From contig JAIVFJ010000101.1 of NCBI GenBank assembly GCA_025765615.1, positions 62,001-126,000 on the forward strand: a stretch of 64,000 bases of DNA. The letters are read 5' to 3'. Each line of letters opens with the position of its first letter. The stretch's first letter is position 1. Both the position numbers and the translations under genes were made by a program. Under the pieces are notes generated by a model that was not told the DNA's origin, searched no databases, and saw only the letters and a program-made list of their open reading frames with translations. The stretch comes from Zopfochytrium polystomum. Taxonomy: Eukaryota > Chytridiomycota > Chytridiomycetes > Chytridiales > Chytridiaceae. This document shows, in pieces, positions 34,825 to 41,714 of the stretch.

Positions 34825-37800
34825 CTACCGCCTCACATCCACGATGCCAATGTTGCCCCCCTTCTCTCCCACCGCCATCAAGTACTCTGACGTCGCGACC
34901 TTTCCTCGAAGCTCGGGGGGCAGCCAGAAATGCTTGACCACGCCCTGCCCTGGCTTCTTCTCCACGTACACCCAGCCGGCCCTGTCGACAGCCATTCTCG
35001 CGTCCCCGCCGGATCCGCTTTGGCGTGTGTGTGTGTGCGTGTGTAGTGGTGGCAGGGGAAGGGAGGATTGATGAGCAAAATGCACTGAAAACCCCTACTG
35101 CAAACTTACCCTTCGTCTCGAGAGGAAGCCGACGGCGTGGAATCTGGATTTGAAGAGAAAAGGGAAGAAGGATTAGTGGTGTGGGGCAACCGATTTTCCC
35201 AACAAGTCCGGCCAAAAGAGTGCCTCACATTCGTCGAGGGGCCACATCGTGCGACGGCTGTTCAAGTCTAACGACCAGGCAAAGAGCCCGTTCGTGGAGA
35301 AGCCGACGGACGTGATGGATTCCCTTGTAAGATACTCTTTCAGCAGAGCACCTGATTGGCACCGTTTAAAAAAAAGGCAAAAAAAAAGGAAGAAATTAGC
35401 GTGGGGTGGGTGGGATGGCTGCGGGAAACAGGGTGGTGTACCATTTTGCGCGTCAAAAATGCGAAGCGCGTGATCCGAAGAGCCGGACGCGAGGTACCGG
35501 CCGTCCGCCGAGTAGGCTACGGCGCGAACGGCGTTCCTGTGCGCGGACACGCTCAACAGTTGCACGCCTGAAATTGAAAATCGAAATCGAACGAAAAGCG
35601 AACAGGTAAGCCGCGAGAAGTGAGAGACCATGCGAGGCGAGGGCCGGTATTTTCGTTCAATGGGTGCAGCCAGCCCGGCCTGCAAAGCGCCATGAACTGA
35701 ACGCCCCCAAAGAGCCAAACGGCACACAAATGATGCGCCTCATTTCATACCAGTAAAAGCATCCCAGACTCTGGCCGTCCTGTCCTCGCTTCCGGAAGCA
35801 AGCCTGGTCCCGTCGGGCGAAAAAGCGACCGAACGAACATTGTCGCTGTGGCCCTCGCAAACAAAAAGGACCAGCCCTGCGTGTGTGTTATTGGTGTTAG
35901 TGTGTTTGTTTGTTTTTCGAAATTATTTAGCACCACAAGCAAAAATACCCCCGAGAAACGAATCACGCCGCGAACCTGTCGGCACGTCCCAGATGCGCAC
36001 AGTCTTATCGTCCGAGCCGGTGGCCAGCATGGCCCCGTCCCGGGAAAACGCAACGGCGTTCACAAAGTCCTCGTGCCCGCTGAACACGGCCATTTCATGG
36101 CCTGAGAGCAGTGTTTGTTGAATGTTTGTTTTTTAATGGTTTTTTTTTGTTAGTGTTTAATTTTGGTGGCCGGCTCGCATCGAGCACATTATAAGCAAGA
36201 GCGCGCTGCGGTGCCCTGACTTCTCCCTCCAGAACACAGAAAAAAAGAAAAAAAACTTAAAGGAGGAAACACAATACACACCGTTCACGGCGCTCCAGAC
36301 GCGCGCCGTCCCGTCCCACGACGCCGTGGCCACCAGCTGTTGGTCGGACGAAAACGTGAGCGCCGTGATGATGTCCGTGTGGCCGCGGTGGGACGCGTGC
36401 TCCACTACGCATTGGGTGGGGCGGGAATTTGTTTGATTTTGGAAATTCTTGTTATTTTTCACTCCGCTTTCTCTGTGAAGCATTCGAAAGCCGTTAGACT
36501 CACACTGCGTGGCGTTCCACAGCCGGATGGTCTTGTCGAGGGAGGCCGACGCGATCCACTTGGAGTCCGACGAAACGGCAACGCGGCTGACGTCGTCCGT
36601 GTGGCCCTGGAACCTGGCCTGCACTCTCCCTGCGGGGGGAAACGAAAACAAAAACAACAATAAAAACAAAAAGAATGCATTTGCGGTTTCTCTTCGATTG
36701 CAAACGGAATCGACAAATATTCCTACCGTTCGCCACGTTGATCACACGAATGTATTTGTCGCGCGACCCCGTCACCAGATGCAGCCCGTTTGGCGTGAAT
36801 GTCAGGGCGCTGATAAAGTCCGGATGCTCGTCGATCGTCCGGAACTGGTTGCCTGAGGAAGGGTAAGAGTTGGACAAACGAAGCCCGAGAGAAAAGATCA
36901 AACCTGTTTGCGTGTTCCAAAACCGTATAGTTCGATCTCGCGATCCAGACACAAAAAAGTCTCCGTCCGGGGAGAATGCAACTGCAGTGACGGCGGCGGT
37001 GTGTCCTTTCAAAAATTGGATGTCGGCTGGGAGCGATTCGAGTGAGTCGCGCGCATTTCTCAGCGACATGATAAAAAAACAATGTCCCGCTCGCAGGTCC
37101 TTACAGGTCTTTAGGTTCCACACCGACACGTGCTTGTCTCGCGCGCCCGAGACGACAAGCGTTCCATCAGGCGAAAAGCAAGAGTCAAAGACAGTGCCAA
37201 TGTGGCCGTCCGCTGCAGCGAGTTCTTTGCCTGTCGGGGGCATTTTTGCAGCCGAAGATGAAGATGAAGAGGACGATTGCATGAGCGAAACCTTTTTTTT
37301 TTCCTTTTTTTTTCTCTTGTTCTTGTTCTTCGGGAAAGACTCACCGTTTCGAGGATTCCACAGTCGCAATTCCGCGCCTTCGGATCCGGTGACAAGCTTT
37401 GCATCGTCCCCAGAGAAGCAAAGCGCAGTGACAGCGTCTGCGCTGCCCTTCATGGACTGCACAGTGCGCCCTTTCACATAGGAAGCAAAGGGACTTTGAG
37501 AACAAACACCGCTGGTGGCGGGGGGGAAAGAAAAAGAGAGGACGGGGGTAAGCGCAACTTACAGGTCGTTGTGTCCCAAATGAGAACGCGGCCGCCGGTC
37601 ACGCTGCACGCAAGGACGTCTCCTGCATGAGAAAAGGCGAGCGCCCACACCGGCTTTTCGCAGCGAATGACCTTCTTCTCGCGGCCTGGATGGGTTAACC
37701 CATCCCCCCACGGAGACGATAAATGAACGGAGTGAGGAGCAGTTATCCTTTCCGGGCCATCTAAAAACCAAAAGGATAAACCAAACAAACAAACCATTAA

Positions 37801-40800: not shown

Positions 40801-41714
40801 AATTTGTTAGCCCTTTTGTTCATTGTCGTACACGTCTTTGTGCGCGCGCGAGTTTGTTACCATCGCTCCCACCGTCCGTTTCTTCGTCAGACTGCACATC
40901 GCGCAGCGGTTCGCCGTTCTCCTTGTCCGCCGCCAGTTTTCCGCCGCCGGCGTCAGCCTCCTCGCGGTGATTGGCGGCGGCGAGCTCCAGCCGAAAGCCG
41001 TAGTCGCGCAAGATCTCGTCCCTCATGCTGTCGCTGTTCATGATAAAGAACTGCAGGTTGGCCGGGTCAAACACCTTGAACCTCAGCCTCGCCGGATCGC
41101 CGAGATCGAACTCGCGCGCGCACCGCTCCACGAAGCGCCGGCAGCTGCAGTCCTCCTCGGTCACCTGGATCCGGCGGTTCACCGAGCTCTGCCCGTCGAC
41201 GATCTCCAGGTTCACGTTCTTGGGAAACAGCGCCGCCAACGCGGAGGGCTTTCCGGTCGGCTCCGTCTTTCGCTTGACCTGGGGCGAACGCGTTGCGTGT
41301 CTCCGTGAGCATCATGGGGGTGGGGGGTGGGTGCGGAAAACAAGAGCGGGCCGGGCTCACCAGGGCGAACTCGCGCACGTTGTCGCGGAGGAGGAGGTGC
41401 GGCAGGCGGGATCGCTTGTTGAGCCGCATGGGTGTTTTCGATGCCTGCGACCGGAAAGTCAGGTAGAAGGCGTCCGGGGGCACTTCGACCGTGTCCGCGA
41501 CGGCCAGGGTCAGGGCGTCGAACGACGCGCATTCGAGGGGCGAAAGGGCGATGGGGTACGTCAGAGCGCCGTCGCCGTTGTCGTCGCAGTCGTCGTCGGC
41601 AACTTGGACGACGATGTCGATCGTCGCATCATCGCTGTCGTCGTCGTCGGGGTTGGCGATTATGGCTCGGCTGGAGGTGCTGCTACTGCTGCTGCTGCTG
41701 GAGGAAGAAGACAT
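34825..41714 (-). CDS. TIR-NACHT-WD40 (NLR-like) protein, 22 exons
   Basis: The model spans 22 exons and closes in frame at 1656 aa. Exons (high to low): 41361-41714, 40861-41278, 40704-40785, 40538-40652, 40344-40472, 40096-40277, 39921-40010, 38548-39865, 37795-38476, then ten exons of 123 or 126 nt starting at 37685, 37470, 37230, 37026, 36852, 36629, 36404, 36101, 35876 and 35567, then 35229-35351, 35110-35143 and 34825-35017. Residues 1-255 hold acidic linker and two ubiquitin-like-looking segments. A TIR-like domain follows (HDFFLSFSHRQASES, WDRLCIDRGERW, AVLLCSEAAL, LLLEWELAL). The NACHT NTPase has Walker A GNAGIGKS (539-546) and Walker B IVIVVDALDE (638-647). About 12-13 WD40 repeats fill the last 570 residues. 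Such proteins act as signalling NTPases in fungal nonself recognition. The first two exons could be a separate gene. Confidence 0.85.

Follow-up and report, generated by a model that had tools for sequence, protein, structure and literature searches.

Organization of the gene

The DNA analysed here (the window) is a 64,000-nucleotide stretch of the Zopfochytrium polystomum genome within contig C101 of the assembly that we searched (80.16 Mb, 761 contigs). Its minus strand carries a TIR–NACHT–WD40 gene with the following features:

34825..41714, minus strand: full coding span, 22 exons, 1,654 residues, spliced model
41361..41627, minus strand: N-terminal module 1 (exon 1), possibly of beta-grasp fold
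40979..41227, minus strand: N-terminal module 2 (exon 2), predicted beta-grasp (ubiquitin/PB1-like) fold
39956..40756, minus strand: TIR domain (Pfam TIR_2), residues 268–443, exons 3–7
40344..40346, minus strand: codon for E364, the catalytic Glu candidate (LLLE^WELAL), with which exon 5 ends
39199..39705, minus strand: NACHT NTPase (Pfam NPHP3_N), residues 509–677, in exon 8
39598..39621, minus strand: Walker A motif GNAGIGKS, residues 537–544
39295..39321, minus strand: Walker B motif VIVVDALDE, residues 637–645
35229..37903, minus strand: 12 WD40 units (exon structure and Pfam)
34825..35143, minus strand: C-terminal tail (exons 21–22)
34929..34903, minus strand: motif FWLPPELRG in the tail, also found at loci L040 and L042 and partly at L044

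The gene model was predicted from the genomic sequence and comparison with public proteins. The single 22-exon frame proposed by an earlier, sequence-only reading stands as an open frame with no internal stops and GT..AG boundaries at all 21 introns, but one splice site, the exon 4 acceptor, had been misplaced, giving a first model of 1,656 residues. The likeliest start of exon 4 is 40646, six bases downstream, behind the acceptor CTTTAG; we moved it there because the resulting sequence FFLSHRQASES resembles FFLSHRQSSES of the public protein P0003. The public Z. polystomum protein P0001 is identical to residues 546–1654 of the model. It starts just behind Walker A, inside the NACHT domain, and the TIR domain is absent from it. 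The gene had been taken for fungal, and NCBI places the species in the Chytridiomycota, Chytridiales. A divergent neighbour at 42661–43500 on the plus strand appears by eye to encode a renalase-type FAD/NAD-binding oxidoreductase, and positions 33076–33326 on the minus strand resemble, again by eye, the start of a Rad6-type E2 ubiquitin-conjugating enzyme.

About 265 residues stand ahead of the TIR domain, and the N-terminal 257 residues have no convincing Pfam match. Because residues 1–187 of the homologue P0002 were modelled with low confidence in the first structure prediction, exon 2 was folded alongside two homologues, which yielded a predicted beta-grasp domain. The exon 1 module is perhaps also a beta-grasp, judging from its sequence pattern and from P0002 and P0003. 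Among the N-terminal pieces of 10 chytrid relatives, two score above a Pfam cut-off: a SAM domain precedes the TIR in P0035 of Chytridium lagenaria (37.4 bits, cut-off 23), and a PB1 domain does so in P0040 of Borealophlyctis (28.7 bits, cut-off 23.6). Weaker PB1 or SAM matches occur in three more; in the window gene, SAM gives no match.

The central and C-terminal domains agree with the earlier reading. On residues 1–1075, NPHP3_N scores 110 bits and NACHT 32.4 bits (cut-off 26.7), and both Walker motifs described as intact can be located. WD40 scores 351 bits on the first model. Among the best 25 of 56 Pfam families, the C-terminal repeats are WD40 and not LRR. One WD40 unit lies at the end of exon 9 and one in each of exons 10–20, the last being degenerate, so that the 12–13 repeats originally estimated are 12 units by exon structure. 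Exons 10–20 are 123 or 126 nt each and are separated by phase-1 introns, and the mean pairwise nucleotide identity of their 11 units is 0.45. A NACHT ATPase with both Walker motifs, followed by C-terminal superstructure-forming repeats, places the protein by sequence in the STAND/NLR class.

The TIR domain and its candidate catalytic glutamate

The TIR domain had been described as N-terminal. It scores 34.5 bits on residues 1–1075 (E 3.2e-8), above the TIR_2 cut-off of 28, but with some 265 residues in front of it the domain does not occupy the extreme N-terminus. Its fold was assessed in one predicted model, that of a Cladochytrium homologue. The TIR of that model matches those of the plant receptors RUN1 and RPP1, with pLDDT block means of 54–85 over residues 191–290 and 28–42 over residues 301–340. 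By this model, the window TIR is predicted to have the flavodoxin-like TIR fold. The NACHT of the same model matches Apaf-1 and Avs3. When the uncorrected TIR was searched against PDB sequences, no match was better than E 0.051; this top match, a fatty acid hydroxylase, was rejected, as was the TPR protein chain 9m0n (E 0.8). PADLOC matches to TIR-NLR and Nhi were likewise set aside, their E values being only about 0.006.

The LLEWE motif contains a candidate catalytic Glu (E364), which a hand alignment would equate with the SARM1 catalytic residue. Its conservation was examined by running 35 sequences (the window protein, 29 public chytrid proteins and five others) against an iterated family HMM. 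Extended matches were obtained for 16 chytrid TIRs, that of the window among them, and every one of the 16 has the Glu. Of the 14 chytrid proteins that gave no family match, eight are models that start at NACHT (P0018–P0022, P0025, P0031 and P0032) and six are of another TIR or gene-model type (P0038–P0040, P0042, P0044 and P0045); four of the five other sequences matched in part. In the Zopfochytrium genome the Glu is kept at 27/27 TIR loci (the 26 best search matches plus C344). Homology stops right behind the Glu codon at all 27 loci and resumes at WEL in 26, so a shared intron at this point fits the data. The catalytic Glu anticipated by the earlier reading has a candidate that is conserved in every sequence of this type compared.

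A TIR–NACHT family with diversifying sensors

The union of these domains recurs in other chytrids. P0002, from another genus, is a 50% identical homologue of the window protein, and P0002 and P0003 align over 99% of the TIR–NACHT stretch. We chose 20 public chytrid proteins, leaving out models that start at NACHT; 18 came from a search with a C265 relative and two from an earlier search. They represent 14 species of Cladochytrium, Nowakowskiella, Rhizophlyctis, Phlyctochytrium, Chytridium, Obelidium, Synchytrium, Borealophlyctis, Chytriomyces and Zopfochytrium. NPHP3_N matches all 20, TIR_2 19 and WD40 18. Because the same domains co-occur in single public proteins, their union is more than chance.

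Within its own genome, the window gene belongs by sequence to a family of more than 100 similar genes. A profile search places TIR_2 at 85 sites, and the window TIR as query finds 177 family matches, of which the 150 listed were used. For NPHP3_N, 150 NACHT places were scored among 231 candidates, spread over 113 contigs; four identically scoring pairs (C66/C191, two on C83, two on C120, and C47/C516) are possible assembly duplicates. At 126 of the 150 scored places a TIR precedes the NACHT on its strand, at most 3 kb away (39 detected by Pfam and 90 by the family TIR, three by both), with a median gap of about 330 bp. No TIR follows the NACHT or lies on the opposite strand within 3.5 kb at any of the 150. 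HET matches occur at 28 places, none within 5 kb of a NACHT place among the NACHT matches listed. Locus L041 (C18:73000-79500), a TIR–NACHT locus, carries ankyrin repeats, near-alike by eye, instead of WD40, so at least two sensor types stand behind TIR–NACHT in this genome. A family of more than a hundred genes in one genome suggests that early fungi have TIR-based immune receptors as one of their major systems.

For 58 of the 184 merged TIR loci, none of the NACHT matches listed lies within the next 3 kb downstream; some of the 58 may be followed by a NACHT candidate outside the 150 scored. Some reach far stronger Pfam TIR_2 scores (E to 2e-22) and may encode TIR proteins that stand alone. 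Four public Z. polystomum models, P0001, P0004, P0019 and P0020, begin at or inside NACHT, with a TIR just upstream in the contig (checked directly for P0020 against L040 and for P0001 against the window). Such truncated models may be one reason why surveys of protein sets undercount TIR-NLRs.

Sensor variation was analysed in 11 related WD40 arrays, a non-random, mutually related sample chosen for long open NACHT frames; L040, with two regular units, was left out. In nine of them (L042, L044–L049, L051 and L052) the mean nucleotide identity between repeats is 0.84–0.93; in L043 and L050 it is lower (0.57 and 0.69). Ten of the 11 arrays, and eight of the nine high-identity ones, stand behind a TIR–NACHT, the exception being L042 (C9), which has no upstream TIR match. 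Across 421 within-array pairs, nonsynonymous differences cluster at positions 23, 5, 4, 7 and 25 of the unit, counted from its initial GH. For positions 5, 7, 23 and 25, which flank the conserved V6 and D24, only three of 111,930 four-position sets reach the observed nonsynonymous sum, this set included and the arrays being related and non-independent; a set in which position 4 replaces 25 scores higher. In the nine high-identity arrays, pN/pS is 1.3–5.0 at these four positions and 0.49–0.99 elsewhere.

A passage of PMC1805685 reports positive selection at codons 7, 9, 25 and 27 of Podospora NWD repeats, which lie on the interaction face of the propeller and flank the conserved codons 8 and 26. 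By our mapping, an offset of two would make these chytrid positions 5, 7, 23 and 25. The variable positions given in a passage of a later paper (10, 11, 12, 14, 30, 32 and 39; PMC12222747) would fit an offset of seven, again by our mapping, and would then include position 4. Variable sites of L042, L044, L043 and L040 were inspected before the published positions were consulted, and the test was rerun on later arrays. The seven high-identity arrays fetched once those positions were known again give 3 of 111,930, as do the eight that stand behind a TIR.

The window gene differs from these relatives. Its repeats (35229-37685) are separated by introns and diverged, whereas nine of the 11 related arrays are highly similar within one frame; the window repeats are old. 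We speculate that intron loss may permit concerted evolution and that intervening introns may protect an array against homogenization, with L043 and L050 as exceptions. Given its diverged repeats and its Cladochytrium homologue, the window gene appears to be conserved and not itself hypervariable, in a family in which others carry fast-diversifying sensors. The evidence for recognition comes from those relatives and not from the window gene.

Proposed mechanism and meaning

Several known receptors share parts of this architecture. The Podospora HNWD proteins (HET-E, HET-D and HET-R) likewise join NACHT to a WD40 sensor; like them, relatives of the window gene have repeats of high internal identity, with hypervariable positions that match theirs. 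In the window gene TIR replaces HET, the beta-grasp region stands ahead of it, and the repeats are not of high identity. On residues 1–1075, HET (PF06985) gives no Pfam match at E 0.01, and NB-ARC (PF00931) is not among the matches at that threshold. The plant TIR-NLRs RPP1 and RUN1 differ in that the window gene has NACHT/NPHP3_N and not NB-ARC, and WD40 and not LRR; the whole core of RPP1 aligns with the Cladochytrium model only at rmsd 15. Apaf-1 is alike in placing a nucleotide switch before WD40 propellers and is the top fold match of that model, but its effector is a CARD and not a TIR. SARM1 has a TIR with a Glu and is not known to have NACHT or WD40; the SAM domain before the TIR in P0035 recalls it.

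Passages of PMC9815663 mention TIR-bearing NLRs of Chytridiomycota, and passages of PMC9806590 describe TIR-NB-TPR proteins in bacteria and fungi and a TIR-NBARC-WD40 protein in a red alga. These NLRs and TIR-NB-TPR proteins are probably of the same general kind as the window gene. The main-text passages of the two papers give no family size, beta-grasp, SAM or PB1 modules, or sensor diversification. On earlier reports of TIR-NLRs, the passages of PMC4986451 found none in chytrids. In the literature searched, outside which most subscription papers lie, no description of a chytrid TIR-NLR expansion was among the matches listed.

On the strength of the domain layout, the family context and the conservation of the Glu, we consider it most likely, with reasonable though not high confidence, that the window protein is an intracellular STAND/NLR receptor with a TIR of the NAD-cleaving type, a NACHT switch and a WD40 sensor. 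The WD40 region, whose 12 units would suffice for two propellers, would hold the NACHT ATPase off and sense a ligand. Ligand binding would lead to nucleotide exchange, upon which NACHT would oligomerize and bring the TIR domains together. The assembled TIRs would cleave NAD+ through E364, with either a nucleotide signal or cell death as the outcome. The beta-grasp region at the N-terminus, replaced in some relatives by SAM or PB1, might tether or scaffold the TIR. The immune role that we infer, like the earlier reading, is strengthened by the family context.

The same receptor might instead use its TIR as a homotypic adaptor or scaffold that is devoid of NADase activity and recruits further TIR proteins encoded in the genome. 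Several animal TIR adaptors act through homotypic contacts, and the TIR loci that have no listed NACHT downstream are possible partners; a pure scaffold has no obvious need for a Glu kept in every family TIR compared, and we think this version unlikely. It is also unlikely, a shade more so, that the window gene is a housekeeping or developmental cell-death switch of the Apaf-1 kind, with only its expanded relatives serving immunity. Its diverged, exon-separated repeats, the 50% identical homologue in another genus and the Apaf-1 fold match all agree with such a switch, but the gene shares its TIR–NACHT–WD40 layout with relatives whose sensors diversify.

That the TIR exons and the NACHT–WD40 exons are two adjoining genes joined on paper is very improbable. 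The truncated start of P0001 is what two genes would give, but P0002 and P0003 run through nearly the whole TIR–NACHT stretch, TIR_2 and NPHP3_N occur together in 19 of the 20 chosen chytrid proteins, the order and strand recur across the genome at short spacing, and the joined model stays open across GT..AG introns.

Mycoviruses are a possible class of ligand, because passages of PMC7482067 record that dsRNA of Z. polystomum WB228 from a virus screen was taken for sequencing and that virus prevalence in Cladochytriales was 47.6% (n = 21). More broadly, and tentatively, at somewhat short of even odds in our judgement, chytrids may possess a large TIR-NLR recognition system (more than 100 loci in Zopfochytrium) whose WD40, and perhaps ankyrin, sensors diversify by the rules of Podospora incompatibility receptors. 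TIR would then be an old effector of fungal NLRs, largely replaced in Dikarya by the TIR-like HET, and the origin of diversifying NWD sensors would lie in defence, against mycoviruses for example, and not in the control of fusion. Chytrids are not known for hyphal fusion, which incompatibility polices. The sensor sites that match those of HET-E make two questions testable: whether the diversification of fungal NLRs began as defence against pathogens, and whether HET is a derived TIR.
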